Source: Sabellastarte sp. h YS-2021
Taxonomy: Eukaryota; Annelida; Polychaeta; Sabellida; Sabellidae
Length of the DNA: 64,000 bases
Direction of reading: 5' to 3'
NCBI GenBank assembly: GCA_964017235.1
Contig: OZ024935.1
Location: 8,556,001-8,620,000, forward strand
The notes under the pieces were generated by a model that was not told where the DNA came from, ran no database searches, and was given only the letters and a program-made list of their open reading frames with translations. A program made the position numbers and the translations under genes. Below, piece by piece: positions 16,005 through 62,600 of this stretch. Each line of letters opens with the position of its first letter. The stretch's first letter is position 1.

Positions 16005-16076
16005 AATATATGCATGCAAAAATAATTGTATTTGTTGTGAAATCTTTGTGAAATGTATATCAAGTATGCAATTTTG

Positions 16077-22721: not shown

Positions 22722-25493
22722 TTATATGCAAATATGTAATCTGTCATATTGTTTGCATGTGGCATATACATCTGTTCCATTCACAAAATATGAATAACCA
22801 AACAATTCTATATCTTCTCTATATTTTTTCGATATTGTAGATATCCAGTGGGCTTGCTTCTTTAACTTTGAAAACAGTGGTAGGTATCGCCCATACTGAT
22901 TGTCCATCGTCTTCCTCTGTGTGTTTAGCTGTACCAAAGGCCCCTGTGCCATCAATTTGTGATGTATTATGAAATCTAGATCTCTGTCCATGGTTTCAGC
23001 CTTGGCTATGTAGCTAAACAAACAAATAAAAATAATTTAGACAGAGCGAACATTTAAAAAATAACATGCATTCTTCTTGACCTAGTCCTTTGTCCAAATA
23101 TGAAATAAATATTAAATTAAAACCCTAGCCAATCAGGATCTCCAGACCATAATAAACCATTGTAATGCTCAAATTGACCAATTTTTTGCAAAGCTGAAGC
23201 AGAAATTGTGTAATAAAAGACAACCTTAAAAAGTAACTAAAAGGTTAAAAATCATTTGTGTATTAAATAAATTTATAAGTTGAACTTGTGTAAACAATAG
23301 AAATGTAATGTAAATTCAAAAATAGCATCAGAGATGAAACAGTATTAAGGTACAGAGGCTTTCAGCATAGACACTGCAAGTTCTGTAACGGGGCATAAGA
23401 AAATATCACTTAAGACAGTAAATATGTGTGTAATGCCAAACTTTTAAAAAAGGGCCATGTAATAGCAAGATGTCAATATTAATTAGTAAACTAAAATTTA
23501 TGAGGTTGCCAAATTTCTCGATTGAAGTATAGCTGTCACTGAAGATAGTACAATTGGGTAAAAGCACATATAATAGTGAGTTGCAGAAATCCACGTATTT
23601 CCCTGATTGAAACAAGTATGAAATATAGCAGTAAAACAAGGCCAAAGCTCCAACAATAAAACAATGTCACACCATAAATTTACACACCTACATGCTCAAT
23701 CAATAACCCTAGATATTGTCAACGTTTTATATCTTACTGTTTACAAGATATAGTCTGGAATTTACAGGCCAAGGTTACTATGACAAGGTCAAATGTCAAA
23801 TCAAGGTCACACAACTGATAACACAGCTGCACCCTCTAAACAATGACCTTAAAAGTATTAACTTTCTTCACTTTATGGTTTCCCAGATATAGCCCATACA
23901 AGACCATATTTCCTTATTCACTTTTTTACCATCAGAATAGAAGTCATAATGCCTTCTAGTATGAGCTTATCCATGCTAGTCTGTGTTGGACGAATAACTT
24001 AAACAGAAATCACGTACTTATGGCACACAAAAACTTGTTTATCATTCACTGTATGATGTATTTCTCAAATAGATAGGATAGGATGTGTATAGACCTAGTG
24101 CCAGGTCTTTCCTAGTTTTGTGTATTTGCCAATACCATGAGTATTTGTCGACAAGTGCAACTTTGTTTTGTAATTCTTTTAAAACTCTTTAACAGAATAA
24201 ATATGTAATATGCATCATGAGGAAGGGTATTTTACAGAGTTTCAGCCTTTTTGTTTGCATTTGTTTAAACATGGGTTTATTACCTCCACCAAGGAGGTTT
24301 TATTTTCATGATTGTTTGTATGTGTGCTTGTTAGTTGGCTGGATTACTGCTAATTTGACTGCTAGTTGGATTTTCATGATTGAAGTGAGAACATGGGTCT
24401 TGATTAAACTTGGGCCACTTTAAATTTTGAGAGTGACCTGGATCACTGTCTGGATGCAAAAAAAAAATAATCCAAATTTTTCCATTTACTTATTCTATTT
24501 TTGCTCTGATTGCTCTTGTTTTACTCATTAACCACACAAAATGGTGGAGTATAAAAATGAAATGTCTACCATTAGATGTATATATAAAAATATATGACTC
24601 ACGAAGATAAACAATATAGTATATATGCCACGCATTTGTTTAATATTGTCATCTTCATTCGCAATATATTTTTCATGTAAGTCATTCAGAGAAGTTTTCC
24701 TATTGCATTTATGACTCAATACCTGTATCGTAAGGAACAAGGACGGGTCAGCTGGAATATGCTTGTCCAGTGGTCATTTTGTACTGACATTACGTATTGC
24801 AGAAATTCTTCAAATGTCACAGACTTCCCATCTCGAGCAAGCTTTTTGACTCTGTCTGCAGTGATACGCCTCTTTTTCAAAATGGCTTGTCTTAATTTGT
24901 TATCCATATTAGTCACAACAATCTTATCCATATAAGCAGATTCTAGTCTGTCAAATGGGTGCCTCACTGTCAAGATGGTGTAGTATGTCTTCAAAGATGT
25001 CAAAATCTTACTTTGGTTCATCTTTATAGCTGGTATTATACTACTGTTTTTGAATGCTCCACTTTTGTGTATCAAGGGCAATTTTTTCCCTTTTGTTGAC
25101 CATTTGTATTCCTGAGCAGATGATGATCTACTGTTATTGCGCAATGAAAAACGCCAAGTAGTTGATCCTGTTTTTGGAACAGAATTCAGGGCAACCTTGT
25201 TTGATGTATCAATCAGAAGGTATCTTCTTGGTAGGATTATGTGTTTTCCAGAATAGCTTTGCGGTATGGTGATATTGTATCCAAGGCTTATGCAGGCATC
25301 ATGTAGTATCTTTAGTCTGCTTAGTCTAGTCTGTTGTAAATCTGTATGAACAGAAAAACATTGGTGTATAACAGGAAAACTACTCTGTTTTTTTCACAAA
25401 AGAAAACATATACATCTGATTCTGTTGAACTGGGCTTTGTTGGACTAGATATTATTGGACCAGGCATGTTTTGTCTTTTGGACTGATTAAATT
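22722..25493 (-). CDS. Carbohydrate sulfotransferase (chondroitin/dermatan 4-ST family), C-terminal three exons
   Basis: A Golgi enzyme family that sulfates glycan chains from PAPS. Three exons with consistent phases are seen: 25414-25493 (donor gat|gtatat), 24723-25330 and 22722-23013. The second holds the 5'-phosphosulfate loop ALNSVPKTGSTTWRFSL and the 3'-phosphate motif ILTVRHPFDRLESAYMDKI, then FEEFLQYV and NDHWTSIFQL. The junction to exon 3 rebuilds LRYSYIAKAETMDRD, like the K-Y-E-T block of CHST8-14 proteins. The end (KYREDIELFGYSYF) is the usual C-terminus. About 326 residues are covered; the first exon(s) with the signal anchor were not found and should lie above 25.5 kb. Intron 2 holds a dispersed repeat. 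No break is visible. Exact paralogue cannot be told. Confidence 0.88.
23755..23830 (-). repeat. TGACCTTTGACCTT-type dispersed repeat fragment
   Basis: Minus-strand short motifs of the GTGACCTTGATTTGACATTTGACCTTG kind (seen on the plus strand as CAAGGTCAAATGTCAAATC and AAGGTCAC) match the repeat family at 54.07-54.61 kb. It lies in the last intron of the carbohydrate sulfotransferase. Confidence 0.55.
24275..24500 (+). repeat. Dispersed non-coding repeat (CCAAGGAGGTT family)
   Basis: Begins CCACCAAGGAGGTTTTATTT, continues through TTTGTATGTGTGCTTGTTAG, TGGATTACTGC and TTGGGCCACTTTAAATTTTG and ends with GACCTGGATCACTGTCTGG. This layout is typical of a repeat widespread in aquatic invertebrate and some vertebrate genomes. 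No coding capacity. It sits in the last intron of the carbohydrate sulfotransferase. Confidence 0.55.
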
Positions 25494-42743: not shown

Positions 42744-42780
42744 ACCTTTTCATCAGATTATTTCATGCTTCTCCTTCACG

Positions 42781-42801
42781 TCCGAAATTTCGGATCACGT
42801 G
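42781..42801. promoter_or_regulatory. Palindrome and E-box at the LINE 5' end
   Basis: Ten bases into the element lies the 14-bp perfect palindrome TCCGAAATTTCGGA (42781-42794), followed by the E-box CACGTG (42796-42801). LINEs of this type need an internal promoter at their very 5' end, so these are candidate elements of it; function is inferred. Confidence 0.5.
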
Positions 42802-42858
42802 ACTCCACCCTACATATACCTTACTTGCATATCTTCTCTTGTAGCCTTATCTTCCAGC

Positions 42859-44274
42859 ATGGACCAGAAGAAAGCAACAGCAGCCCAGATCGAGAACGTC
42901 AGACGCCAGTGGGAGGAACTAGACTACCAGTCCAAAGTGGCCCTATCACTCCATTTCGCCGACAACCTGGAGAAGCTCGAGGAATCAATGGCCTCCCAGA
43001 GCTCCAGAGGGAGCCCACCCAGGCCAACCCAGGCAAAGGAGACCCAAAAGAGGACCAAGACCAAGAAGGTGAACAAGGCCAAGACCAGTCTCCCCTCAGC
43101 ACCCCCAAAAGGTCACCTTGAGGAAATGGCTGAAGCCCCAACCACCAAGGACCAGGAGCCCCCCGCAGCTACCCAGAGGCTAGCAGAAGGGATGACCTCC
43201 ACCCCCACCAAGAGACCCAGGCCTGCCGACTCTTCAAAAGAAGAAGACGGGTTCACCACAGTCCAGAAGAAGAAGAAAAGAGGTAGTGCCAGCCCCCCCC
43301 AGGCCAGGAGACCAACCACGGAACCCACTCCAAGGACCACCCCGGAACAACCAGAGGAGAAGAGGACCCGACCAACCAGAATACCGCCTCTAGTGATTGA
43401 AGGACCACTAGTGGACAAGATGGCCTCTCCCACCGAGCTACGGAAGGTGATAAAGATTCCTGAGAGAATCAGGGTCACCAAGACCAAGGCCGGAACATAT
43501 CTCCTCCACTGCAGGACCGAGGACGACCGCCTAGAAGCCCTGACACACGGCTCGAAACACACCAGCTTCTGCGTTCGCCCAACAAAAAGGACCACAGAAG
43601 AGCACCGGGCCACCGCCCTCCAGGTAGTGGTAAAAAGGTTCCCAACCCAAATCAAGGCAGAAGACATCAGAAGAAAGGGGAACGAAAGGTTCCAACGGAT
43701 GAAGTCGGCCAAAGATAACAGGGAGATAAACAAAATTAAGATCACCACCAACAACGAAGCAGAGAGGGACTACCTACTAGAGAATGGCTTCCCCTTTGAA
43801 GGAATCAGGTACCACTGCGAGGAATACAGGCCTCAGAAGGAACCAGTCCAGTGCTTCAAGTGCCAAAAGTTCGGGCACACAACCAAGGACTGCAGAGAGA
43901 CCGAAGACACCTGCAGAAAATGTGGAAGTAGCCATCGAACATCAGACTGCAACCAAGAAACCAGGAGGTGCTCCAACTGCCAGGGAAGCCACCCCACCAC
44001 CTACCCAGGATGCCCCGCCAGGAAGGCCGCCGACGCGGAAAAACGCACCCAGGCCCTGACCTACGCCCAGGCCACGAAGAAGACAGATGAGCTTGACAGC
44101 CTGAAGCTCACCCTAGCTGTAACGGAAGCCATCGCCTCGTGCCTAAGCGACCACACTGGGATAGAATGTAACATTGAAGACACAGCCAAGATCGTGACAG
44201 CAACCTTCAACAAGATCTACAGACAAGACTACAACCACACAGCCGTCACCAGATTCCTCACCAAGAAGCACTAA
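42859..44274 (+). CDS. Jockey-type LINE ORF1: nucleic-acid-binding Gag-like protein, 471 aa
   Basis: Packages the element's RNA. The chosen ATG (MDQKKATAAQIENV) follows a 5' UTR; an in-frame ATG at 42799 would add 20 hydrophobic residues that look like untranslated leader. The first ~190 residues are Pro/Lys/Thr-rich and likely disordered (KKKKRGSASPPQARRP). A folded region follows (IRVTKTKAGTYLLHCRTEDD, an RRM-like domain), then three zinc knuckles: CFKCQKFGHTTKDC, CRKCGSSHRTSDC and CSNCQGSHPTTYPGC, the arrangement seen in Jockey/I-group ORF1 proteins. A C-terminal helical part ends VTRFLTKKH. ORF2 begins 30 bp after the stop. Confidence 0.92.
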   Translation: MDQKKATAAQIENVRRQWEELDYQSKVALSLHFADNLEKLEESMASQSSRGSPPRPTQAKETQKRTKTKKVNKAKTSLPSAPPKGHLEEMAEAPTTKDQEPPAATQRLAEGMTSTPTKRPRPADSSKEEDGFTTVQKKKKRGSASPPQARRPTTEPTPRTTPEQPEEKRTRPTRIPPLVIEGPLVDKMASPTELRKVIKIPERIRVTKTKAGTYLLHCRTEDDRLEALTHGSKHTSFCVRPTKRTTEEHRATALQVVVKRFPTQIKAEDIRRKGNERFQRMKSAKDNREINKIKITTNNEAERDYLLENGFPFEGIRYHCEEYRPQKEPVQCFKCQKFGHTTKDCRETEDTCRKCGSSHRTSDCNQETRRCSNCQGSHPTTYPGCPARKAADAEKRTQALTYAQATKKTDELDSLKLTLAVTEAIASCLSDHTGIECNIEDTAKIVTATFNKIYRQDYNHTAVTRFLTKKH

Positions 44275-44304
44275 TAAGACCGTCCCCGTACTACCAAACC
44301 CAAG

Positions 44305-46989
44305 ATGAAAGTAATCTGCCACTGGAACATCAACGGATTCGATTCCAAAAGAGAGCAATTAGAACTCTACCTGGACCACAAGAAAGTCGATGTAATCTGT
44401 CTCAACGAAACCAAACCCACGCACCGCACCACTTTCGAGATAGATGGATTCACACTGGCCGCCCGACGGGACAGAGCCAACCTGGGCGGCGGAGGAGTAG
44501 CCATACTGGTCCGCAACTACATGGATGCCTCTGAGATAGACCTGGACACAGATGACATCTGCGCCATAACCACAACCATCGACGGGAAGAAGACCTGCAT
44601 TATAAGCTGTTACTGGGGCTTCGCACACAGAGGGCTACCCAACCTGGACACCCTGAAAGACCTACTATCTCGCCACAAACACTCAATCGTACTAGGAGAC
44701 TTCAACGCCTACCACCCAACGTGGGGCCATCAGCAACCGAATGAGAGGGGGCGAGCCATAAGACAACTATGCAAGGAATTCGACCTACACCTACAGAATA
44801 ACCACAACCAACCTACCTTCCACAACCACTCGTCGGACCGTCACTCCATACTGGACCTTGCACTGGCCTCCCCCGCAGTCGCACGGAGCATAATGAAAAC
44901 GGAAGTCCAGGAAGCCATACACGGAGAGAACACCTACCACTGCCCTCTGGCTCTACAAATCAGAACAAACATCAAGGACCACCCAATCTGGACCTCAAAG
45001 AGCCTCAACAAGTGCGACTGGGAGAAGTACCAGCGGAAAATAATGGAGAATTTCGACAGGATCCAAGGAAGAGGTCCTACTAACTCAGTAGCCTCTATTG
45101 ACAAGCACGTAGAAGAGGTCACTGAAACCATCGCCTCATGCCTCCATGACAGCTGCCCCACTATCAAATCGAGACAGGGCCTCATCAAAATCAGCAGAGG
45201 CCTACTGGACAAAATCAAGCTTAAACGGGACATCCAGAGAGAAATAAGGCAGTTCCCCGACTATGAACCTCTAAAGCTAGCCTACAGAAACATCACCAAA
45301 GAAATAAAAACCCAACTATATGAGGAAAAAAAGGCCGCCCAAATGAGAGAAGTAGAGGCCCTGAATCCCAAGGACAGCCAACAATACTGGAGAACAATCA
45401 ACAACCTCACCGGGCAAACCAAACCCGAGAAGAAACCTATAAAACTCATCAATCCAGCAACCAACACCAGGACCAAGACAGAGATGGAAACCGCCAACAC
45501 ATTCGCAACACAACTGGCAAAGATCCACAGAACCCACTCAGACATATACTTCAACCACGAGCACAAAGCAGAAGTCGACACGTGGGCCGAATCCATGAAG
45601 GAGCACCTCACCCCACGCAGCACCCCGGCGGCCCCATCGGATGAGTACTCCAGGATCATCACCAGCGAGGACACACACCGGGCACTGAAATCACTCAAAA
45701 ATAAAACCAGCCCAGGCGAAGACACCATTCCATACATAGCCCTGAAAAACCTCCCGGAGCCTGCAATTGACGAACTCACAAAGATTTTCGGCACCTGCCT
45801 ACAAATAGGATACTTCCCAAAGAAGTGGAAACATGCCATTGGGAAGATGATCCAGAAGCCAAACAAACCAAAGGACAACCCAGCCAGCTACAGACCCATC
45901 AGCCTACTGAACTGCATGGGAAAACTGTTCGAAAAAATCATCTCCAACCGGATCCAAGAGTTCATAGAAGACAACAACATCATCAATCCCTGGCAACGGG
46001 CATACCAGCCCCACAAGGAAGCAAATGAACACATAATGATCATTAACGAGTACATGAAGAAGGTCAAAGAAAACAAAAAACTAGCAGCCCTACTGCTCAT
46101 GGATGTAGAAAAGGCCTTCGACGCCGTATGGCACAATGGGCTACTCAAGAAACTTCATGACATGGAACTCCCGGGCGACATCCTCCGGATAATCTCCTCG
46201 TTCCTCACAGACAGAACCATTCAAGTCAGAATAGGAAACACCCTCTCAGAAGTAGTGAAACTACTGGCAGGGACACCCCAAGGGAGCATACTCAGCCCAC
46301 TGCTCTTCATCCTATTCGTCAACGACATTCCGGTAACACCAGCTTGCCAAGTAACTCAGTACGCTGACGATATCGCCATATACACTAGCCACCGCAACCC
46401 TAGATACCTAGAGGCCCACCTCCAGAAACAGGTGGACGAATTGGAGGACTGGTGTGAGGACTGGTTCATCAAGCTGAATGCCAAGAAAACCCAGCTAATG
46501 ATCATCACACGCCAAAACTCTAGGAAAACGATACCTATCACAGTCAGAAACAACCAAGTGGAAATCCAGGACTCGGCAATACTACTAGGGACCACCCTAG
46601 ACAGAACGATGAATCTGAAACCACACATCACCAGCCTCATAAACAAAACAGCACCAAGAATAGAAAAGCTAAGACAGCTACAGCTCTGGGGAGCACACCA
46701 AGAGGCACTGAAGACCTTCTACACAAGCATGATCAGACCAATCCTAGAGATCGGATACCATCTCACACACGACCACAAACCTAGCCTAGAGGCCCTACAG
46801 AAGGTTCAGAACAAATGCCTCAGAATGATAACATGGACCAGCCCACATGAATCATCGAAACCAAGCCACGAAATTCTTCGACTACCTTACATACAAAGCT
46901 ATCTTGAACAGTGCAGAACCAAAGCACTCAAACGATACGAAGACTCTGAGCTCCAACAGCACCTATCGGAGGTTCTAGAGGCCGTTTAA
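44305..46989 (+). CDS. Jockey-type LINE ORF2: AP endonuclease plus reverse transcriptase, 894 aa
   Basis: Cuts the target and primes reverse transcription. An apurinic-type endonuclease fills residues 1-230 (WNINGF, CLNETKP, VLGDFNAYHPTWG, SSDRHSILDLAL with the catalytic S/TD-H area). The reverse transcriptase runs about 450-760: NPASYRPISLLNCMGKLFEK; block A LLLMDVEKAFDAVWHNGL; GTPQGSILSPLLFILFVNDI; block C TQYADDIAIYTS with both Asp. A typical thumb (KLNAKKTQLMII) and C-terminal domain (YTSMIRPILEIGYHL, KVQNKCLRMITW) follow. No RNase H domain is present, as usual for Jockey. The frame is intact. With only 30 bp after ORF1, reinitiation or a stop-and-restart mechanism is likely. Confidence 0.95.
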   Translation: MKVICHWNINGFDSKREQLELYLDHKKVDVICLNETKPTHRTTFEIDGFTLAARRDRANLGGGGVAILVRNYMDASEIDLDTDDICAITTTIDGKKTCIISCYWGFAHRGLPNLDTLKDLLSRHKHSIVLGDFNAYHPTWGHQQPNERGRAIRQLCKEFDLHLQNNHNQPTFHNHSSDRHSILDLALASPAVARSIMKTEVQEAIHGENTYHCPLALQIRTNIKDHPIWTSKSLNKCDWEKYQRKIMENFDRIQGRGPTNSVASIDKHVEEVTETIASCLHDSCPTIKSRQGLIKISRGLLDKIKLKRDIQREIRQFPDYEPLKLAYRNITKEIKTQLYEEKKAAQMREVEALNPKDSQQYWRTINNLTGQTKPEKKPIKLINPATNTRTKTEMETANTFATQLAKIHRTHSDIYFNHEHKAEVDTWAESMKEHLTPRSTPAAPSDEYSRIITSEDTHRALKSLKNKTSPGEDTIPYIALKNLPEPAIDELTKIFGTCLQIGYFPKKWKHAIGKMIQKPNKPKDNPASYRPISLLNCMGKLFEKIISNRIQEFIEDNNIINPWQRAYQPHKEANEHIMIINEYMKKVKENKKLAALLLMDVEKAFDAVWHNGLLKKLHDMELPGDILRIISSFLTDRTIQVRIGNTLSEVVKLLAGTPQGSILSPLLFILFVNDIPVTPACQVTQYADDIAIYTSHRNPRYLEAHLQKQVDELEDWCEDWFIKLNAKKTQLMIITRQNSRKTIPITVRNNQVEIQDSAILLGTTLDRTMNLKPHITSLINKTAPRIEKLRQLQLWGAHQEALKTFYTSMIRPILEIGYHLTHDHKPSLEALQKVQNKCLRMITWTSPHESSKPSHEILRLPYIQSYLEQCRTKALKRYEDSELQQHLSEVLEAV

Positions 46990-49690: not shown

Positions 49691-50521
49691 GGAGTTTGTG
49701 TTCCGTGTGTTTCATAAATTTACCATGTCAAATGTCATCTGAAACAGAAACTGTTATTTACTTGTTAGTTTTTAAGTAAACTGATTTCAGAGTCCAAAGA
49801 AGTTTAACTAAAGCATTAAAAAGCGGATAGCTTTCTACCCAGTGGTACACTTTCCACACTAAACTTTCCAAAATAAACATGAAGAATAAATCCTTACTCT
49901 AATAAAAATGCATCAGTTTAATTTGTTGACAAATATGCTCTATTGAATGCTGTAGAGAATACAAAGAATTGCATTGCTTATATTTTCTCCTCAAGGGTTT
50001 ATCTTTGGGCCGATTTCATCTGTAGCCAGTGGTAGGTCACATGAAGAATTGCATTGCTTTGACCTAGAACCACGCTGAGATTTTCTCCACCAGGAAATAT
50101 CTTTTGGCTGAAGTCATTTATAGCCTCACATAAAACCACTCAAAACACTCAAGACATAACTACTAATCAATGCCAGTTGCTGAAAAGTGTATTTTTTGGG
50201 CTTTATATGATAAAACAGTTAGGGAAGTCACTGACATAAAAATTCCATTTTCAGCTTGATAAACGTTAGCTCATTCATTTATCCCCCTTAGAAAATGATG
50301 AAAAACATCAAATGTTAATTAAATAGCACTTACGGACTTGAAACCTTTAGCACAACCTCTCGAATTACCTGAGGTAACCTAAAATGCTGGGAAAGGTTCA
50401 TTAGCTTTATACTGTCGACGTTTCTGGTTATTTGTGTTTTAGGGACCCTAAAGTAAAGTTAAGTTAGTTGAGTTTAAGTTAAAAAGTTTGGGTGATTTAA
50501 ATAAAGTCAGAGTTCAAAGTC
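49691..50521. other. Intergenic, nothing recognised
   Basis: AT-rich, no coding or repeat signal apart from a partial direct repeat of ACATGAAGAATTGCATTGCTT-like sequence near 49.96 and 50.04 kb. Confidence 0.4.
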
Positions 50522-50668
50522 AAAGTTTGGGTTTTACGTCCCGTTGAACAGCTAGGGTCATATTGGGACAGGTTCTAATTATTGCCACTTGTGGGACTCA
50601 AACCACACAGAGTTGACAGTCTGTGATTAGATGCCACACTTGCTAACCATTAGGTCACAGAGGACCTC
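50522..50668 (-). repeat. tRNA-derived SINE, same family as 38692-38842
   Basis: Minus strand: A box TGACCTAATGGTTAGCAAG, B box TGTGGTTTGAGTCCCACA, body CTGTCCCAATATGACCCTAG, tail GGGACGTAAAACCC. Nearly full length and little diverged from the other copy. Confidence 0.85.
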
Positions 50669-50731
50669 AAAGTGATTGCAATGTCATGGCCGAGGCAATG
50701 TCTTAAGATGAAGCCTTATCATTGTTATTTT

Positions 50732-51529
50732 CCCAGTAAACATTAGAAAGGTTTTTAAATGGTTTAAATGTTTACAAAACGTTTTTAATACCTAATTAAA
50801 CCCTATCTTTGGTTTTCTAAACGTTTCTAAGTAAACGTTTATGCTGTAATGTTTAAAAAACATTTTATAAACATTCTCGATACAAACCTATTTACTGAAA
50901 ATGTTTATTAAACACTTATGAAATAACTCAAGAAGCTAGGTTTGACTGGAAATGTTTTAAATACATTTTGAAATAGCTGAAGAAATTAAAGTTTTGCTGG
51001 AAATGTTTTTCAAACATTCATCAGGAAATGTTTGATAAACAGTACACATAAAATGTTTAAACAACATTGCTTGTCAAATGTTTTAAAAACATTATATCAA
51101 AAACGTTTTTTAAACCCATATTTCTAAACCTTCACCTTCAAACATGTCCAAAGATGGCGGTGAGCAATAATAGATGATTTTAGATGACTTTGTCTAAAAT
51201 TGCCCCACATGCAATCCCTAAAAGTAAGAATTGAATGGGGGTACAAGTTCTAAGGCACTATCTTACAATTTTAGACATAAAAATATTATTTTCAATACTG
51301 AGCAACCATACAAAGATAATGAATTTGACCTCTCACCCCATTATTCTTCAGGCATTATTATGTTCATTTATAATGTTTTTCTAACATTTATCATTAAACG
51401 CTTAATAAACGATTTGCATAAAACATTTTTAAAACATTCTATCACAAATGGTTTTCGTACCCATCAATTTTTAACCTTTGCCAAATGTTTCTTTTCAAAC
51501 GTTTGCAAAACCCAAAAATGTTTACTGGG
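50732..51529. mobile_element. MITE or foldback element with CCCAGTAAACATT ends
   Basis: CCCAGTAAACATT (50732-50744) and its exact reverse complement (51517-51529) bound 798 bp. The interior is a dense series of short inverted pieces built on AAACGTTT, AATGTTTAAAAAACATT and similar, so one strand can fold into many hairpins. No transposase. A short plus-strand ORF at 51231-51629 runs across the right end and is not supported. Target duplication not resolved. Confidence 0.75.
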
Positions 51530-52435
51530 TTCATCAGAAGTGTGCCTCTGGTCATACGTCAGTTCTGTCCTACATTATTACTATCCCCTCCTTAGAAACC
51601 CTAGCTTTCTTTTTAACATCAAACTTTAACGAGGACAATCACAGTCTTTATAAATTCTATAAAAACTATTCAGCCCACTAACACATGGGGCTGTACTCCT
51701 AAAGCCTGTTAGGAGTCCATGGTCCAAATCTTCCCACCCATATTCCCCTGAAAGTGCAGCAGAACTCCTGTGGGGGCACCAAGAGAGCGTCTGCTGTGCC
51801 CAGGGTGATGCTGAGTTGATATTTTATGAGTAAATAATGTGCTCTTGTGAATGTTTAGGTGCAGGCAGCATTTGGACCATTGGTGTAAGACCAATGGAAT
51901 ATAACTTGTACAATGTGACTACCAAATGATGATGGATCTATTGTGTGTACACTGGCAGTCAACCGTGTGACCTGATCCATAAAAGCAACTGCAAACTTAC
52001 ATCGTAACTAATGTATATATATAAACACAGGTAATTATGCAAACACCTATCCGTTGGGTCTTTTGTCATTATTGTATTATCTTACTCCATTTCTACACTA
52101 ATGGTCACTAAAATGTCTTTCCTTTGCATTCTGCTTTGGGTTTTTGCAAGCTTGCCTCGTGTTGATGAGAAGGGGGTTGAGCATCACTCTTGCTGTCTAT
52201 TCTACGGATTCTGTTCAGCTTCTATGACCAACACACTGAGATCATAGCTCCCCATAATGGAATACAGTGAGCCTGTACACCTCATTTACTTACACAGTAG
52301 TCATCACCACTGTCATCTGCTACAGAGTAGCTGACCAATCTTACTTCATCCCTCACCCAGAGGGATGACCGATTGAGCCTGATTGGATGACTCATAGAAC
52401 ACAATTGTATGACAAAGTGGACTTTTACCCAGCAA
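51530..52435. other. Intergenic, nothing recognised
   Basis: No coding, RNA or repeat signal that can be supported. Confidence 0.35.
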
Positions 52436-52439
52436 GTCA

Positions 52440-52495
52440 AAATGGGGTTCCGGCACGAAATACTCACCAGGGCGGCGCCACAATCGATGTGACCT
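52440..52495 (+). repeat. Short fragment shared with 57.3 kb (inverted)
   Basis: Reads GGATIDVT-like peptide (QGGATIDVT) on the plus strand. 57.31-57.42 kb on the minus strand reads NPGGAVIDVTF, with a shared GGCGCCRCC and GTCACATCGAT core. These are two pieces of the same repeat or gene family in opposite orientation. Confidence 0.5.
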
Positions 52496-52728
52496 AAACA
52501 AAAAACGTATGTGACAGAAGAACCAGGAAGTAGCGAATATTAATTTATCTGATTTCTGGATATATACGCATTTATCTTATAAAAACTATAATGGAAATAG
52601 TGTAGTAAATTATATAAATTAGTTCTGTGAAGAATATGGAATTTGTATGAGATATTTGTAGCAGTTTTAACATAAATCCCCTATTTTCGCCCAGTTGTAG
52701 CTAAACAGAGTACTAGTAGTGACATTCT

Positions 52729-53031
52729 ACCAGTGAATGCCAGCCTACCAGTGAACGCCCGCCTTATATATCTTTGTTAGAGGTCAAGGACAAATCCTCT
52801 TATATGTCAACAAAATGGGCGTTCACTGGTATTTCCGGTTTGCGGTAAAAACGGCCGATAATTGACAAAAAATATTAAAATATAATGTTTTGAAACAAAT
52901 GTAACAAAATGTACCTCAAATGATAATTGCAGTGTATATCATCAGACAATCTGGTTGTAGAAGAATAAAATGTAAAGCTGTCAATCGAATTTAAATTCAA
53001 TATATTCACTTCAGCATGGGCGTTTACTGGT
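52729..53031. repeat. Inverted repeat cluster (ACCAGTGAACGCCC)
   Basis: ACCAGTGAACGCCC at 52747-52760 has its exact reverse complement at 52817-52830, making a 14-bp stem. One-mismatch copies lie outside at 52729 (ACCAGTGAATGCC) and 53018-53031 (GGGCGTTTACTGGT). Probably a small MITE with subterminal repeats. Confidence 0.7.
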
Positions 53032-53542
53032 TTCAATGAAGATCTGTTTCAGAAAAAAATACTGATTTAAATTTAATAAAGAAATTTTTAGAGGAAATCA
53101 AGAAAAGAAATATTTAGAAGAAATTTATTTCATCAATAAGGCCTCATTTTCTTTGATATTTCCAAAAAATATTTAAATCACAACTATGTTATATACATAC
53201 AAATTTTTTAGTAATTTCATCCCAAATTTTTTCAATTTTTTTTTTATTTATGGATTTATTTTACTTATTATTTAAACAAACTGGTGGATAATAAATAAAA
53301 CACCCAATATATTGTTTCATATATTTATGTACCTAAAATTAAGCTTAGTGTGTGTAGTGTACGTTATTTTATCTAAAATATTCTGAAAATTTTTTGCTGA
53401 TTTGTTTTGGCAAATACACAAATATTTTCAACTAATTAACATGTACGTACCAATCACTGGTGTTCTCAACCATTTTCTAAATTTATTAGCTAATATTTTA
53501 ATGTTTATTTCAAATAAAAAAAATTTTCAAAGAAATGCCAGG

Positions 53543-53792
53543 AAATTCTGTATGGATTTTATTTATTTATTTGTTGCTCTACGTCGTGTTCAACAGCCAG
53601 AGTCATATTGCAACGGCTAGTTTACAGGTGGAGGAAACCATTGCATACTGCACTGTAAACCACCAGGCATCAACAAGTACCTACCAACTTTCCAACATGA
53701 AGCGCCCGGCCCGAGATTCAAACCGGCGGCCTCAGAGGTTAGAGAGAACTCTAACCGCTACACCACTGAGCCCCCTAAAAATTCTGTATGGA
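53543..53792 (-). repeat. Complete tRNA-derived SINE with 14-bp target duplication
   Basis: Between identical AAATTCTGTATGGA copies (53543-53556 and 53779-53792) lies a 222-bp SINE on the minus strand. It has an A box in CAGTGGTGTAGCGGTTAGAG, B box CCGGTTTGAATCTCGG, conserved body TGGTTTCCTCC and GCAATATGACTCTGGCTGTT, and tail AAATAAATAAATAA. The perfect duplication marks a recent insertion. Confidence 0.93.
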
Positions 53793-53869
53793 AATTAATA
53801 GACAAAGGTATACTTCTTGAATTTACAATACATTACATTTTACAACAATAAGTAATACAGTAGCATATT

Positions 53870-53956
53870 CTGACATATTGGGAGACCTGGGTTTGATTCC
53901 CAGTGGTGTTCCTTCAAAAACATCATAGCTTAGTGATAAAGCACTCAGTTTGTCAG
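53870..53956 (+). ncRNA. Circularly permuted tRNA-like element, copy 1
   Basis: The two halves of a tRNA cloverleaf are in swapped order. First comes the anticodon stem 3' strand (TTGGG), a 4-nt variable loop AGAC, the T arm CTGGG-TTTGATT-CCCAG (B box) and the 3' acceptor strand TGGTGTT. After a ~9-nt linker come the 5' acceptor strand ACATCA, TA, the D arm GCTT-AGTGATA-AAGC (A box) and the anticodon stem 5' strand CTCAG. The outer ends CTGACA and TGTCAG pair, extending the anticodon stem. Seen in sequence; whether it is transcribed is unknown. Confidence 0.65.
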
Positions 53957-54075
53957 TTATGTTACTCTTGTTATTTATTCAAAATAAACTCTGCATGGAT
54001 TTTAGGGACTACATATGAGCAGAAGCACTGAGGAAATACCTTACTAGTGATATATAGAACACATCTCTGGGTTAC

Positions 54076-54230
54076 ATAGTGTGAAAGGTCATGGTGTGAC
54101 CTTTGACCTTGCTGTAGTGACATTGAACTTTAAATCTTACAGTTTCTACATAGTGTGCAAGGTCATGGTGTGACCTTGGACTTTGCTGTAGTGACCTTGA
54201 ACTTTAAAATCTTACAGTTTCTGCATGTGA
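54076..54230 (+). repeat. 74-bp tandem repeat with nuclear-receptor-like sites
   Basis: Two units (AAGGTCATGGTGTGACCTT.. starting 54085 and 54159) repeat with few changes, and looser relatives continue to about 54610. The first unit contains TGACCTTTGACCT (54097-54109), an exact inverse of the DR1 consensus AGGTCAAAGGTCA bound by HNF4/RXR-type receptors. Binding is not implied by sequence alone. Confidence 0.8.
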
Positions 54231-54474
54231 TTAAAATTCTTTTCCTGGCTATATCTCAGAAAGTGAAAGTTGTAGGAAGAAATAGATTATCAATTAATTA
54301 ATTTCAATTTTTTTCATAAAATATTTTAGTGAACAAGAGCCCAATGAGTCAAACACCACCAATTATGATACATCTTTACCCCCAACGCCCTTAAGGGCTG
54401 TCAGGACATTGTTTTCACCCATGGTGTCCTGATGGGCATTTGGGCAGGTGGACAGTTGGAAAAAGTTTGATTTG

Positions 54475-54610
54475 ACCTTTGGCCTTGCTATAGTGACCTT
54501 CACTTTGCAAATCTTGTCTGGGCTATATCCTGTAACTGTAAGGTGTATGCAACATTATGGTGTGATCTTAATTTGACATTTGACCTTGTCATAGTGGCCA
54601 TGAATTTAAA
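54475..54610 (+). repeat. Diverged member of the TGACCTTTGACCTT repeat family
   Basis: Reads TGACCTTTGGCCTTGCTATA, GTGACCTTCACTTTG, later TTGACATTTGACCTTGTCAT. Same order of blocks as 54076-54230 but more mutated. Confidence 0.6.
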
Positions 54611-55379
54611 ATTTTGTCCCCATTTCTTGGATTCAGTAAGCAGGTGTTCCGCTCGAGCTGACCCTACAACTCAGGTCAGCTACAAAAGTCGTGTGGTCAG
54701 GGATAAAAATTCACAAAAAAGGGCAGGAAAATACTAGGTCGGTTGAACCTCCCCGACAGGACGGTACACTTACAGAATTGCAAATTTAATAAGTAAATTA
54801 AATTTTTATAAGTTGATACCCTATCCAATGGACCGGCAAGGCCCACCCATCCAGCCCCACTATCAACCTACTAGAGGTCTTCATAGCACTAGACAACAAA
54901 AAGATGCTATGATGTCATGCTGTCTGGACAGAAAGGAAGTACAAGGTAACACCTAGCGAATGCACACTCTGCGACCGGTCCTGCCAGTAGTATATACAGG
55001 ATGTCTTTTTTGGAGTTTGGTGGGATCGGTCACACCCCCAACCAACATCCATACCACATAATCCAGTGGCAGCGATCAATCGGTGGCATCCCCAACCAAC
55101 ATCCCTACCACATAATCCAGTGGCTGCGATCAATCGAACCAACCTGAAAACAAATAAGCACTCCCAACAGTCTACTCAATAACTCTTGGAAACCCTTATT
55201 ATAGTCCAGGCAACAAGCTAAATACACACAAAATAGAATATGGCTGGCTGGGGTCAAAAAGGGGTATTTTAAACTCATGTTAGGTCCTCAGTAAAAGATA
55301 TGTACCAATACAAAAAAGCAAATTTTCTTTAAAATATGTATATAATTTTTTATGTTATAGTATTGCAGCAACAAAATAA
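54611..55379. other. Intergenic with a short tandem duplication
   Basis: CCCAACCAACATCC..ACCACATAATCCAGTGGC occurs twice (about 55036-55073 and 55089-55126), a ~53-bp tandem duplication. Otherwise nothing is recognised. Confidence 0.5.
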
Positions 55380-55456
55380 CAGACTGAGTGCTCTGTCACT
55401 GAGCTATGATGTCTCATTCCACATCACTGGGAATCAAACCCAGGTCTCCCAGTCTG
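55380..55456 (-). ncRNA. Circularly permuted tRNA-like element, copy 2 (77 nt)
   Basis: On the minus strand: CAGA, anticodon stem 3' strand CTGGG, variable loop AGAC, T arm CTGGG-TTTGATT-CCCAG, 3' acceptor TGATGT, short linker GGAATGAG, 5' acceptor ACATCA, TA, D arm GCTC-AGTGACA-GAGC, A, anticodon stem 5' strand CTCAG, TCTG. Acceptor strands pair over six bases. The element ends (CTCAGTCTG and CAGACTGGG) pair over nine bases, including one G.U. Length equals a tRNA. It shares the arrangement, not just the boxes, with copy 1. Confidence 0.7.
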
Positions 55457-55489
55457 AGCGGACAGTAAATATTTTGTTACAAGAATGAA

Positions 55490-55594
55490 CAGCCCTAGCG
55501 AACTGTATGTTCTCGTTTCATCTGCCCTTCCAACTACCCGTCGTGATATGACCTGTACAGTGTTGAAAGTGACATAAAACCTCAAATAAATAAA
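55490..55594 (+). repeat. SINE 3' half
   Basis: GAACTGTATGTTCTCGTTTC, CCGTCGTGATATGACCTGTA, TTGAAAGTGACATAAAACC and AAATAAATAAATAA match the 3' half of 26609-26843. The tRNA-like head is absent. Confidence 0.8.
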
Positions 55595-55941
55595 TAAGTT
55601 ATAAGAATGAAAAAAAAAAAAATCTGATATGACTTTAAAAAATATTTTGCCTTTGAGCAATATGTCTCAAATAATGGATAATTTTTTTACTGATTGTACT
55701 GGTATTTAAAGCATCTGAGGACATTTTTATAAACTAAATACTCACTGACTGTATAACAAAATTATAACATAATAAATATTGAAATATTAAGGTAGCCAGG
55801 GTCTTTTTATTTATTTATTTTTTTTTTTTTGGTCTTCTTCAACATCAGTGACAAGGTAGACTTTTATAAATGGAAAATAAAGGAGCCAGAGGGTTTTATT
55901 CAAATTTTATTACTTTAAGGACGACATATAGAGCTGCATTA

Positions 55942-56930
55942 CATGGGTTAGCATGAAGTGGGTCGATTTTTCAAATGCTTTTAGTGCTGTGTAAAAAGTA
56001 AAATGGCCAGAAGCATTATGTTTGGCAGACATACAGAAGAAAGTAATAGCAGCAACAAAATGCAAAAATTGGCTCATAACTTTTTCCCACAAATGTAAAT
56101 TAGTACTAGGGCAGGGTCGGTAGCATATTTTTCATTTCGGTATCTCGCCAGTGTAAAACCGCACTGATTCCGGGATACCGAAAGAAGAAATTTTGTTCTA
56201 GTATATACCCAATCAAATAAGCCCACCAACTGGAAGTTGAATTTGTGAAAGGAAAACATTACAGTTCTGATAGAAATCACTATAAAAATGCTAAAATATA
56301 TAAAAAATATGGGATAAAAGTTTGTAATTTCTTCAAATTTGAGGTTTGTTCCTAATACTTTACGTTTTCTTACAATGTTATACACTGACAATCAAAATGC
56401 CGGCTGTAAAGTGTCACCACGGTGTTGAAGTGAATTGGTCTCGATACCGAGATACCGGTGTTACCGACCCTGCCCTAATTAGTACAAAATCATTGAAAAA
56501 TATCTGTGCCAAACATTCATGAAGTGGGTCAATTTTTCAGTCAAAAATACCTTTCCAATATTCATATTTTGACCAAATCAATGTGTTTCTTGGATTTATA
56601 ATACTTAAAAGTTCACAAAAAATGTTTGCCAGAAAGAAAATGGCAATAAATCCATGATAAATAGATCTGGTTTGTGAATATGCCATGGTGTAATTGCAGT
56701 CAGGATTTCCCCTCATATAAGAAGGGTAATAAATTTATTTTTAATAATTTAAATTATTAAATTTAACAGACATCAAAACATCACAATCTGATCTTTTATA
56801 ATTTAGTATATGTACTGTAAAACTTTTCCAAAAATTTCATGATACAGGAATACAGCAAACTTTTATTTTGGTAGAATTTCTTGAAAAATTGACCCACTTC
56901 ATGAATCGACCCACTTCATGCTAACCCATG
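55942..56930. mobile_element. Tc1/mariner-like MITE, split by a hAT-type MITE
   Basis: CATGGGTTAGCATGAAGTGG at 55942 has its reverse complement ending at 56930, and both ends are next to TA, the mariner-type target dinucleotide. The right end repeats the inner CATGAAGTGGGTC block. The 989 bp include a nested 371-bp element plus its 8-bp duplication, leaving a ~610-bp non-coding MITE. Confidence 0.75.
56099..56485. mobile_element. hAT-type MITE with 8-bp target duplication
   Basis: Perfect 16-bp terminal inverted repeats TAGGGCAGGGTCGGTA (56107-56122) and its complement (56462-56477) are flanked by ATTAGTAC on both sides (56099-56106 and 56478-56485). 371 bp, non-coding; the minus-strand ORF crossing it is not a gene. 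It is nested in the mariner-like MITE, so it is the younger insertion. Confidence 0.93.
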
Positions 56931-57296
56931 TAATATTTACAATTTAAGGTAACCATAAAATCGATGTATCCCCCCAAATTCTCATCCCTATAGTTTAAAA
57001 CAAAGTACAATGAAGTAAAAACAATTCCAAAGAAATAGTACGGTAGTTATTCAGGGGTGGCCATAATCCGGCAATGGCGAACAGGTGTACCATTGTAAAA
57101 CATGTAAGCACCCCTGACAGGCTGTTGGAGTTTCAGATACCCCTATTATCGCCCATTTCACATGATAAATACACTAAAAATAAAACATGGCAGCTGTCAT
57201 AAACTGCATCAAAATAAGTATTATGCATCAATTGATAATTATTATATAAATATTTTCGAATAACTCTGCTGTATATAACAGGACAAGAATTTATCC
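56931..57296. other. Intergenic, nothing recognised
   Basis: AT-rich, no feature seen. Confidence 0.4.
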
Positions 57297-57662
57297 TCAT
57301 TTGTTTATATTAGTTACTGTGTTTGGTTCAAAGGTCACATCGATAACGGCGCCACCTGGATTCGGGTACACGCTACTATTAGTACGCCGGAACGCCATTA
57401 ATAATGGTTTTCTTTCCTGCCCATTCTGCTTTTGGGTTTCTCCAGGTTTCCCTGTTTTCCCATGATTCAACTCTTGATTCAAATTAGAGTCAACACTAAA
57501 ATCACTGTCCCTAATGACCATGGCTGTGGAAGGGGACGTAAAGCACCAACTTTGACTAATTTGATAGAAGTTGGAGTCAGTAGTTAATTGGAGCTTCCAA
57601 CTGGAATCCCATGGCCCAGCACCAGTGAGTGGGACATCAGTGTTTACTTGGGATTGTTGCAA
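57297..57662 (-). CDS. Unrecognised ORF, 121 aa
   Basis: Contains QNGQERKPLLMAFRRTNSSV and ends NPGGAVIDVTF. The last part is shared, inverted, with 52440-52495. No conserved domain is recognised. More balanced base composition than the flanks suggests coding or mobile origin. The upstream ATG in ATGGCGACACTC is in another frame. It may be the tail of a dispersed element. Confidence 0.35.
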   Translation of the reverse strand: MQQSQVNTDVPLTGAGPWDSSWKLQLTTDSNFYQISQSWCFTSPSTAMVIRDSDFSVDSNLNQELNHGKTGKPGETQKQNGQERKPLLMAFRRTNSSVYPNPGGAVIDVTFEPNTVTNINK

Positions 57663-58293
57663 TCCGATTGAGTGTCGCCATCTTCAATATTTATTCTTCA
57701 AAGTGCTAAAAATATTATAAGCTTATTAATGCCCTCAATACTTCTTACTTATTACCCATACAGTCCCCAAAGAATCAGGCGGAACCTGTAATATGTTCTA
57801 CAATTATTTATAATTGATAATGAAGACTTAAATAAGGATATTTTGTCAGTTTGTTACTTATTCTGATCTTGTATTTGTCTTTCACTCGTGTGTAAAAATA
57901 TGTCTGCGATATGTATCTTAGAATTGCATTTATAGAAAATTATTTCAGAACTTATAACATACTAAATGTGGAGTTACAAGGAAAACCATGTAATGTGTAC
58001 ATTATATAACTTGATGGTGCTGCTAGAAAAACATATGATTATCATAAAACTTACCATGTATTGGGTGGGGTGATGCAGAGAAAACAGTGTATAAGATTGC
58101 AAAGGACAGATCAGTGTTACCATGTTAGATTGGATGTCACATGGAAACGTTCAGGTCATATTGCAAGAACTAAGATTATGCCAAATAGTGCTAATTCAAA
58201 ATTGCCTGATACATGATTTATGTAGTAACATATATTTCTACCTTCTCAGTGGAATTGGCTGAAGATCCAAAGTATCTGACCCCCTAAGGTACA
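57663..58293. other. Intergenic, nothing recognised
   Basis: AT-rich, no feature seen. Confidence 0.35.
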
Positions 58294-58368
58294 TTTTTGC
58301 TCCAGCAAAAATATGCCCTGGCTTGCCCCCTGGGCATCAGATTATTGATTTTTTGGGTAAAAAATCAA
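58294..58368. repeat. Two adjacent perfect hairpins
   Basis: TTTTTGCT-CC-AGCAAAAA (58294-58311) and TTGATTTTTT-GGGT-AAAAAATCAA (58345-58368) lie 33 bases apart with no mismatch in either stem. A third short stem, CTCTCCT/AGGAGAG, follows near 58525-58545. Confidence 0.8.
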
Positions 58369-58942
58369 TACCCTTGTTTGTGGGTTGCATTGGAGTTCAT
58401 TAATGTTGTATTTATTGTATATATTGGCATGTTATTATTGCCTGTATTTAGCATACATGCAGGTGTGTACCAAATGAGCAGTTGCTATGGTGATCTAGAC
58501 TCGAATTCACTCAGTCCAATAGCTCTCCTTCTGACTTAGGAGAGTTAGGAGATGGTCAAGCTCACCAATCATATGTCTGATCGTCAGATTTTATTAATTA
58601 CATTATTCATGTGTGTTGCCATATTGTAATAAAAAGTCACACAGTAATGCAGAAATAATTTATTACCATATACATATTGTTGTTTTTATTTTAATAAATA
58701 ATAAATTAAGAAATATTTTATTAATTATTATTTTTATTGTGATAATAAATTATACATTCAAATTGTGTGAGTTTTTACTGTGTTGTGTTATGATTTGATA
58801 ACTACAACAAATTATATATGATACTCATGGAGTCCAACATCTGATGGGGAGACAGGGCCAAACACTTTATCTAGTTTGGACTTAAATTCTTCATCCATAT
58901 TGGTGGCAAATGTTTCTGTCTCAATCTCACTGTCCTTGGATA

Positions 58943-59385
58943 TTATGTGTGGTTCATTTTTTCCAAATCATTAGCTGCAGCTTCTACTACGGCCAGCCAG
59001 CCTAGTTTAGGGTTTTGGTTGACATGGGCATACCTAGGTTTGGTCTCCAGTTGATCTCTAAGTCTGGGATAATATTTATCCACCAATTTATCTACGTTAG
59101 GTTTCTTGACCTCCGTTGTAACTTTGGAATTTTGGACCTTGGTTATGGTTTCACATTTGATTTTGGTCATTGATTCTTGTACAATCTTGTTGATGTCAGA
59201 CTCTTTCTCAATCTTGGTTTGACTGAGATATGGGTTGGAACATATGTGGGCTCAAATTTTCGTGTCTTGGGTGTTGGGGTAATTATACTATTCGTAGTTT
59301 GTATAAATACTTCTGGTGTTTCAAAGGAAATAAGTTTAAAGTCATTGATGAGGTCTTGAACATCCCCTGGTGGTAAGATAATCAA
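58943..59385 (-). CDS. Two overlapping unrecognised ORFs (72 and 75 aa)
   Basis: The first (59167-59385) starts MIILPPGDVQDLINDFKLIS and the second (58943-59170) reads VKKPNVDKLVDKYYPRLRDQ, then HVNQNPKLGWLAVVEAAAND. Both have coding-like composition and lie in different frames, suggesting one damaged gene. Coding-like text continues below the second stop to about 58840 (FATNMDEEFKSKLDKVFGPV). No domain is recognised. They lie just upstream of, and antisense to, the second YR fossil. Confidence 0.4.
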
Positions 59386-59689
59386 GGAATCGATGTTTTG
59401 CGGGTTGGCATTGAGGTGCCAACCTTAATCATTCCTTCACCCCTAAATTTTGAAACACTCCTATAATATAAATGGGTTTACTGGCCACATGGCCGTTTCT
59501 GATTGAATAAAAGTTTGACCCTTGCTTTGGTCAAAGGGAGAATGGCCAGATTTGAACTGACAGTTGACGAGACAAGACCTGTATTTAGAATTTTACAAGA
59601 TATTTATTTGTTTTCAATTCATTTAATTTATTTTATTCATTTATTCTTGCTCATTCAAGGAAATGTTTAGAGTGTTTGCTGAAAGATTG

Positions 59690-62600
59690 AATGATGGCAG
59701 CAAAACACAGCACTTCAGGTAACTCTTACAATTTGCGTCGGAAAGTTGAGATTCCTATAGAAGTCCAGTTAAATAATGACAATGCTTTTCTGAATGAATT
59801 GCCTCTCAACCAGAACCGGGTCAGAGTTAAAAATCTAGGTCTGATACTGAATCTGATACTAGTATTGATTTGGAAATCGGTACTCTGTTGTCACAGGAAA
59901 GCGAAGATTCTGCTGCAAAATCGCCTATGCATGTTTACAAGAAAAATTTCAAAAAATCAGACAGACTTTCACGTTTCAAAAATTCAAGAACTAGGGTGGA
60001 TACGGTTGGAAGCCAGATGGACCAGACATTGATTAATGAATGGATACTTACGATTAAGCGATTAACTACTATTGAAAAAAGTTCGGCTTCTGCTGTTCGG
60101 CCTACGGCCAAAAAAGTTGCTTTTTCTAGGGGATCTGCTAGTTCAAGTCTCAATGGAATTTTTACTGAGGGTGATTCGGTCAAAAAATTACCAGAATAAC
60201 ATATCTTGAGACATGAAAGGTCCATTCAGGACCAAGTTGAAGCTAGGATCAGACAACCGAGAAAGAGTTAAATGGCCCCATGAGTTTGTACTGTGGAGAA
60301 GTACCAAGGATAGAATTACATATAATCAGTTGAATATCACACAGTGGGTGTCTGGCTTCTGTAGAATTCGAATTCTGAGAGATGAAAAGTGCACAAAAAA
60401 CTAAGGATCACGTTAGATTATCTGATTGCACTGCTTGATGATTCCACTAAGTTTTCATGTCAGACAGCCAAGGCTAGCCATGCTGTACTCCTATGCCATA
60501 TGGAGCAAGGGGAGGTGACTGGTTGGTTGGATACGGAAAAAATTGACTGGATCAGACGTGCTAATGCTTAAAGACATGTGGTACCCAGTCAGGTACAAAA
60601 TATCTCACAAAAATTTCGAAAAAGTCAGTCTGGTCAGAATCAAATGCCCTGTGTGTATTATAATGACAATTCATGCAATTTTCAAAAACATCATGAGACA
60701 AAAGGGGTATTCTATCGACATATATGTAGCAAATGTTTTGCCCAGGATTGTGAGATCAGTGTTCATAGTGCCTTGGATTGCAAAACAAAAAATAATTAAC
60801 TCTGGGCATACTCGATAAGGCTACATGGCAGGCTGATTGTGTCCAGGAAACTAATGTAAATTATTGCTAAAATAAAAAGTTTGCTAGGTATATTTTCAAT
60901 ACTTCTTTTTGTAGAAAACCTGTATTTACGTAATGTCAAGCTTCTAGGAAGGAGTGAACTGAGTGGTTCAACATTAGCAACAGCTGTAAGCTTGTTGTGT
61001 CTGGCAAGTCTTTTACTTTTTACTTGTGGTAAGAGCTAAATTGGGCCAGAAGCTACACTTCTGGTGGGTACTCAAGCAAACGAGGTGAGCCTCTTGAGTT
61101 GTTCAAGGAGAGTGTTAAGCTGTCTTACAATACTCCACATCATGCAGTTAAGCAGGAAGCCAAATCTTGTAAAACCACCAGAAACAATCAAAATGATAAT
61201 TTCATTGTTTGTAATAAGGTTTGAACCCTTGACAGAGGAAGATTTGATATCAGATGATTCGGACATGCTTGAAAATGAAGTCCAGGCAGTGGACACTGCA
61301 ACAGGCGCAACACACATCTATGGTGTGTTTAGGTATATTAATGGACACTGAAACCAGAACCATGTCTGTTCCCCCCGAAAAATAAGAAAATATTATTCAA
61401 ACGTGCACTGACATGCAAAATAAAAAGTATTGTTCAAAAAGAGAGCTACAATCTTTGGTTGAATCTCTCCTATATGTGTCAAAATGTGTCAGACCAGCCA
61501 GGACATTCTTAAACCATATGGTTCACGTTTTAAAATCAATGGGAAGCAAATCCTCAACAAAGTTAACAGTTAAATTGTTTTAAGGACCTACAATGGTTTT
61601 CCACTGTTTTGAAACAACTTAATGGCATAGTCTATTATGAAGTTAAACCAGTTCAAGCCAAATTACATTTAAATGTTTGTTTAACAGGTTTTTGGGGTAT
61701 TTTTGATAATCAGTGTTATGCTATTCCTATACCAAAATATTTTAAAAACTACTCTATTGTACATCTGGAAATGTTAAATATAGTGGTAGTCCTTAAGATC
61801 TGGGCCACTCAGTGGTCTTGAAAAAAATTACGTGTTAAGTGTGATATCATAGCTGTGATTGACGTTTTGACCTCTGGTAAGACCAAAGAACCCATACGTG
61901 CATTGTGTGCTCGTAATATATGGTTGTTTTCTACAATATGCAAAATTTCCATTCCATTGAACACATACCAGGTAAAAGCAACATTGTAGCTGATTTGTTA
62001 TCTAGATTTAAGTTTGATGCTGCCTCATGGCATTCTCTAGACCAATATATCCCTAATTTTATATGGATTCAGACACATATCGACCTCAAAAAGTTAAATC
62101 ATGATTTATTATTGAAGATATGCCTTCTGCAGCAGTCCAGCTGACCACCAGTGCGTTTGCTCCTTTGCTTCAGACCTTCAGGTCTGCTACACCAAGAGCT
62201 CATAACAGGATGTTCACTGACTTCATGGCATTTCTGGTTGCTGCTGGATTGCTGCCATCTCAGGTAGATGTACGTATATTACTTGCTTTCATGGAGTACT
62301 TATGCCAGAACAACTTTACCCATTAAAATATTTCAAATTATTTGGCTGGTATTTGAGCTTATTGCGTCATATACAATATCCCTACCATGGCATTTAAAGA
62401 TCAAAAGATCCAAATGTTCAAATCACTAAAAATTGACAGATCACTTAGTATTAAGAATACTTCCATTCTCACAGATGCCATGATATTTGACACTTTGGAA
62501 ACCACTGCACAGCTGGAAAATCCACAGGTCTTTAACTCAATTTATCTGCCGGCATTTTTCTCAGTTTTGAGACTTTCTAAAATGTTACCTCATAGTTTTG

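Follow-up and report, generated by a model that had tools for sequence, protein, structure and literature searches.

Two tRNA-like elements in the 64,000-nucleotide stretch of DNA analysed here (the window) are two copies, in inverted orientation, of a single conserved module about 90 nt long, carried by a non-coding element derived from an ISL2EU-type DNA transposon. The carrier is a known kind of transposon. The module has the parts of a tRNA cloverleaf in circularly permuted order and, in two gene-bearing relatives of the carrier, lies upstream of both transposon genes.

The modules and their carrier

The features discussed here, in window coordinates, are as follows.

52441-57399, no strand assigned: non-autonomous ISL2EU-type DNA transposon with both modules, termini ATGGGGTTCCGGC... 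and ...GCCGGAACGCCAT
52441-52495, + strand: 5' terminal region, an imperfect inverted repeat to the 3' end
53867-53959, + strand: permuted tRNA-like module, type Z, linker TCCTTCAAAA
53887-53903, + strand: T arm or B-box-like stretch of the (+) module, CTGGGTTTGATTCCCAG, located by eye
53904-53925, + strand: acceptor-like stem halves and joining linker of the (+) module, by eye
53928-53942, + strand: D arm or A-box-like stretch of the (+) module, by eye
55246-55941, - strand: right arm, 76-79% identical to regions upstream of the transposase genes in L140 and L145
55373-55463, - strand: permuted tRNA-like module, type Y, linker GGAATGAG
57332-57399, - strand: 3' terminal region, imperfect inverted repeat

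A preliminary description of the window had reported tRNA-like elements with swapped halves at 53870-53956 (+) and 55380-55456 (-), and the T arm indeed precedes the D arm in both copies. Each runs from the T arm (CTGGG TTTGATT CCCAG) through a 6-bp acceptor-like stem closed by the linker to the D arm, and its ends pair; this outer pairing, also noted at the outset, comprises 9 bp in the (-) copy and 12 pairs plus one T.T mismatch in the (+) copy. A covariance-model search, proposed as a check for the whole genome, was run on the window with a model built from 82 module copies, matches being taken at E up to 1, and it returned exactly two places, the two modules (E 9e-24 and 7.5e-22). An Rfam scan of positions 50000-60000 (E up to 10) gave five matches, tRNA not among them. 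Both elements are therefore real, but they are not independent of each other, as both lie within one larger repeat at 52441-57399; separate insertion of the two is ruled out because one transposon contains both modules. The repeat boundaries found are those of this larger transposon, the edges of the module itself having been set by eye.

The carrier is 4.96 kb long and non-coding, and no recognised transposase frame was found in the window copy. One locus, L040, matches 52441-57399 in one piece (98.7%), and five others (L039 and L041-L044) match in pieces split by insertions and deletions. As read by eye, the AT on both sides is kept in the window copy and in L039-L043, the left end of L044 being damaged; at L041 one carrier copy has gone into a sister copy, whose sequence without the interruption has a single AT. 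The termini of this family are GGGG/GGCG. Those of a second family, X, begin with ACAC and not GG; AT is found at the X ends as well, and the two families share about 200 bp of the left subterminal region (78%). The AT target sites are those seen in the window family and in X, the ends of L078 and L079 (below) lying beyond the sequence reached. A SINE-like insert at about 55487-55597 interrupts the alignment of the right arm to the regions upstream of the transposase genes of L140 and L145. Judging by this alignment, the window copy seems to derive from such elements by loss of internal sequence.

A second SINE-like insert in the carrier, at 53590-53775, has a tRNA-like head in normal order on the - strand (by eye). 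Positions 55938-56934 are taken up by a nested transposon of about 1 kb whose 40-bp ends are inverted; L040 has it as well, and it is absent from L039 and L041-L044.

Elsewhere in the window, a second, diverged ISL2EU-like element at 14715-17028 has DDE_Tnp_4 and a weak THAP match on the + strand (score 20.5, under the cut-off of 23.9) and YqaJ on the - strand. No tRNA-like module was detected in this copy, and neither the inverted repeats around it nor a search with the carrier ends revealed shared termini. An open frame of 840 aa at 11536-14058 has reverse transcriptase and GIY-YIG domains, and we take it to be a Penelope-like element; a two-frame non-LTR retrotransposon occupies 42745-46989, with endonuclease and reverse transcriptase domains in its second frame; and a sulfotransferase-like exon on the - strand at 24716-25393 possibly belongs to a host gene.

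Copies in the genome

The copy count suggested in the preliminary description gives 711 exact copies of the 20-base 3' core in the 1.79-Gb genome, with 0 for the control; with up to two changes allowed, there are 1068 copies against 81 for the control. Among the first 100 of the 711 copies listed, 26 pairs of neighbouring modules lie within 6 kb, 21 of them ordered + then -, one - then +, and four in the same direction. The window pair has the + then - layout, with the 5' halves pointing inwards. Three module types, X, Y and Z, each retain their own linker. Six copies in the same direction, spaced 4.82-4.83 kb apart like head-to-tail carriers, occur in G000 at C3:65403852-65428053; at L027, a different place, a single AT is common to two copies at their junction.

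Gene-bearing relatives

In the relatives L078 and L079 an inverted pair of modules about 8 kb apart has convergent genes between its members. One strand encodes a protein with YqaJ (1e-16 in L078, 7e-19 in L079) and Viral_alk_exo matches, and in L079 also a SAP match; the other encodes a transposase with HTH_Tnp_4 (3e-7 and 2e-14, respectively) and DDE_Tnp_4 (3e-52 and 2e-46) matches. Because the module pair brackets two convergent genes, one module stands upstream of each gene, in sense. The exons of these genes were read by eye, as was a THAP-like upstream exon of L079, which is without a Pfam match. In both genes of L079 an acceptor-like site, again by eye, stands before what is probably the first coding exon, some 230 and 460 bp past the module, so that on this reading the module may sit in the first exon or the first intron. 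A splice donor, GTAAGT, occurs about 25 nt upstream of the module in L076 and L077, on one side of L079 and in some other copies; we rejected it as a general feature of the module, as it is missing from most of the rows compared. The convergent YqaJ and transposase genes, together with the AT target sites, match the published description of ISL2EU as given in the available portion of that source (PMC4482050).

The genes themselves have diverged deeply: between L078 and L079 the DDE protein is 37% identical (42% over 240 aa in another comparison) and the YqaJ protein 24%. The module, by comparison, keeps 90-100% identity per 20-column step on both gene sides, which marks it as a conserved part of the transposon. 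On the transposase side the sequence surrounding it is mostly 25-70% identical; on the YqaJ side identity stays at about 60-85% over some 200 columns, one low step among them, and then drops to 20-55%. Comparison of the left with the right side of L079 gives the same island of module conservation.

The module lies upstream, in sense, of five of eight transposase copies (L078, L079, C20, L140 and L145), the eight being a small chosen part of the 91 transposase matches listed and three of the five (L078, L079 and C20) having been found via their module. The transposase at C20:21554835 lies, by coordinates, about 2.4 kb from the L075 module, C2:44849423 goes with the L140 module and C4:99214874 with the L145 module; C7:115369736, practically identical to L079, was excluded from the count. 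No module was found within about 3.5 kb upstream of the remaining three copies (L142+L146, L143+L147 and L144+L148).

Folding and covariation

The cloverleaf is the minimum-energy RNA fold of both window copies. For the (+) copy the fold reaches -28.0 kcal/mol (z -2.85), which none of 200 dinucleotide shuffles equalled. For the (-) copy it reaches -31.0 kcal/mol (z -1.75), equalled by 9 of 200 shuffles, so that folding energy by itself is a moderate signal for this copy, whose centroid structure is not the same as the minimum-energy cloverleaf. Six further module copies gave z from -1.56 to -3.92, including weak values for L079 (-1.56 and -2.18), and the single-stranded DNA of four module copies folds into nearly the same shape as the RNA (z -1.75 to -3.82).

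Over 82 distinct copies, covariation in the cloverleaf scores 0.120; shuffles average 0.101 and none of 500 reaches as high, in a comparison where related sequences can exceed shuffles without structure and where the cloverleaf tested was derived from the very sequences scored. In these copies 89.9% of the cells are paired in the cloverleaf (88.4% in shuffles), and there is no excess of pairs changed on both sides (5 against 5.2 shuffled) or of further pair types (26 against 26.5). The clearest covarying pair lies in the D arm (C-G in 33, U-G in 27, U-A in 20), and the outer stem of L140 has a two-sided change from G-C to A-U plus one broken pair. RNAalifold favours another partial fold, which has two hairpins in common with the cloverleaf and scores under all 500 of its own shuffles; the alternative helix of that fold (columns 12-16 with 69-73) was rejected, having no covariation support. 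Covariation thus favours the cloverleaf over the rival fold.

A tree-based pairing test was not significant (35 kept, 44 broken, 31.4 kept expected, P 0.23); within it, the linker hairpin, one of five subsets, had 6 kept and 2 broken (P 0.025). Counting pairs from column 8 inward, pairing was kept in 11 of 18 cases on inner branches and 19 of 49 at tips; over all pairs the fractions are 16/29 and 19/50. This contrast is only suggestive; it agrees with a structure that active lineages maintain and dead copies gradually lose.

Probable descent from a tRNA

ARAGORN reported no tRNA in the window or in any of the 82 single module copies. When modules were joined head to tail into dimers and cut at the widest outer stem, tRNA calls were made in 69 of 82; narrower cuts gave 27, 1 and 0 of 82, and shuffled dimers 0 of 820 at every cut. 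The dimers of both window copies were called tRNA-???, with an undefined anticodon in a 6- or 8-nt loop in place of the 7-nt loop of a tRNA gene, and a type X dimer tested beside these two gave no tRNA. These dimer-only calls are a stronger sign of tRNA descent than folding energy.

Several features of the module depart from those of a tRNA gene. The outer helix is continuous (median longest run of 9 pairs in 82 copies), and no pair of 3-nt bulges, as in a bulge-helix-bulge, was found in eight module folds. The T loop is TTTGATT in 711 exact copies and TTCGATT in 7, the usual C being absent in 711 of 718, and the D loop is mostly GTGA. We offer, as an idea only, that in tRNA numbering the T and D loops could presumably exchange the G19-C56 contact for an A-U one.

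The other origin raised in the preliminary description, a MITE or SINE derived from tandem tRNA copies, stands in so far as the modules belong to a mobile element; that element is neither a SINE nor a slice of a tandem tRNA SINE, the carrier being an ISL2EU-type DNA transposon. In 149 sequences (the window plus loci mostly gathered by module search, some overlapping), 168 of 171 cases have the 3' half followed by the 5' half, the permuted order, and copies running into a normal tandem tRNA SINE, named beforehand as the observation that would tell against a permuted element, were not found in these sequences. A rotated 70-nt query gave a best match across the joint of 41/70 positions among the 40 scored of 802 candidates. 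We reject a slice of a normal tandem tRNA SINE on the strength of the half order and this query. In one case, L072, which has two tandem modules, a 3' half is preceded within 300 nt by a 5' half.

At L072 the modules, of types Y and Z, are in direct tandem at 1483-1752, and a DDE_Tnp_4 frame of 236 aa, open at the end of the locus, lies about 560 bp downstream of them (2312-3019).

Proposed role and alternatives

The reading we place first, with slightly less than even confidence, is that the module acts as a putative structured RNA in the leaders of both transposon genes. We favour it because the module is found in sense ahead of both genes, is conserved as a narrow island and has covarying cloverleaf pairs. 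Weighing against it are the non-significant tree-based test, the different fold preferred by RNAalifold, the weak folding scores of some copies, the similar folding of single-stranded DNA, and the missing module at three transposase copies and at the ISL2EU-like copy at 14.7-17.0 kb. Transcripts of both genes would start upstream of the module or be spliced over it, and the module would fold in the transcript into a cloverleaf of four arms, with the former anticodon stem closing it. The structured RNA might then aid expression of both genes through leader stability, processing, export or translation. The source of the module itself may have been a tRNA, either circularised or joined head to tail, that was opened in its anticodon loop. 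The broader proposal, that an ISL2EU lineage recruited a permuted tRNA cloverleaf as a putative RNA leader of both its genes and kept it through deep protein divergence, is possible but on balance doubtful.

Somewhat unlikely, and the strongest of the alternatives, is that the module is a signal in DNA: a promoter or insulator to which TFIIIC binds at the B- and A-box-like stretches, or a site within the element recognised by the transposase or its YqaJ partner. The cloverleaf would then be a by-product of tRNA ancestry, or a fold of single-stranded DNA, and module DNA does fold into nearly the same shape as the RNA. The near-fixation of the B-box-like GGTTTGATTCC (the 20-mer is found 711 times, its variant with C in the loop 7 times), the inverted symmetry of the modules about the genes and the retention of the module in non-coding copies, where no gene leader is needed, all point this way. 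Against it, the accessible part of PMC3978253 describes the reversed box order as unsuited to TFIIIC, the window modules lie 1.4 and 1.9 kb from the transposon ends (the right arm including the insert of about 1 kb), and the cloverleaf pairs, many of them G-U, covary above shuffles.

We consider it unlikely, more so than a DNA signal, that the module is a tRNA-derived relic with no selected role, spread and homogenised by recombination as a shared patch at which transposon families swap arms and turn their cores round. In keeping with such exchange, among X copies the core between modules is flipped in L049+L050 relative to L064+L065 (97.2% over 1.6 kb) while the flanks are direct, and mixed X-Z and Z-Y module pairs occur. 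The non-significant tree-based test and the lack of a module at three of eight transposase copies also agree with a relic. However, the conserved island spans only about 120 columns and is seen beside both genes, in differing surroundings, and the retention of different linkers by types X, Y and Z indicates that exchange has not homogenised the module types.

A true circularly permuted tRNA gene, captured by the transposon and expressed as a tRNA, has in its favour the half order, the break in the anticodon loop, the short linker and the ARAGORN calls on dimers, but this reading of the preliminary description goes unsupported, and we reject it, given hundreds of dispersed copies, no defined anticodon, an unbroken outer helix without the expected splicing-motif bulges and a T loop without its usual C; that the gene exists is highly improbable, and that the module makes any tRNA equally so.

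Relation to known systems

In literature surveyed by titles and the beginnings of abstracts, with few subscription journals covered, we found no earlier account of an animal or a transposon with a permuted tRNA-like module, nor any matching description of tRNA-derived MITEs or of ISL2EU with a tRNA. The modules show that a permuted tRNA layout can arise and last outside tRNA genes, within a mobile element. For tRNA scans this means that permuted tRNA matches in large genomes may be transposon modules.

ISL2EU, of the PHIS superfamily, is described in the available portion of PMC4482050 as having an AT target duplication, a DDE and HTH transposase, a second gene with a YqaJ domain and termini that "usually" begin with GG. 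The elements studied here resemble that description in the AT duplication within A|AT|T (carrier copies), the GG first bases (window family) and the DDE and HTH transposase accompanied by a YqaJ gene (L078 and L079). A THAP domain in the transposase is a further ISL2EU feature, for which there are here the THAP-like exon of L079, by eye, and the weak match in the second ISL2EU-like element of the window. The elements differ from the description in that family X begins with ACAC rather than GG, and in having permuted tRNA-like modules, as an inverted pair, ahead of the two genes; the word tRNA occurs 0 times in the main text of PMC4482050 as available.

Like tRNA-derived SINEs, the modules are tRNA-like and dispersed in hundreds of copies; unlike them, they have the B-box-like before the A-box-like stretch and move within a DNA transposon. 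Viral tRNA-like structures (TLS) and the mascRNA of MALAT1 are tRNA-like structures within other RNAs. The module shares with these a tRNA fold outside a tRNA, but is permuted, lies upstream of genes in a DNA transposon and has a role that is putative. Were it to act as RNA, two genes of one DNA transposon would have a tRNA-derived regulatory structure in common.

The permuted tRNA genes of algae and archaea have the 3' half first, a short linker and a break in the anticodon loop, as the module does; the module differs in being without an anticodon, in showing no bulge-helix-bulge, in being multicopy and in being part of a transposon. Should the module work as RNA, it would offer a simple system for asking how permuted tRNAs originate.
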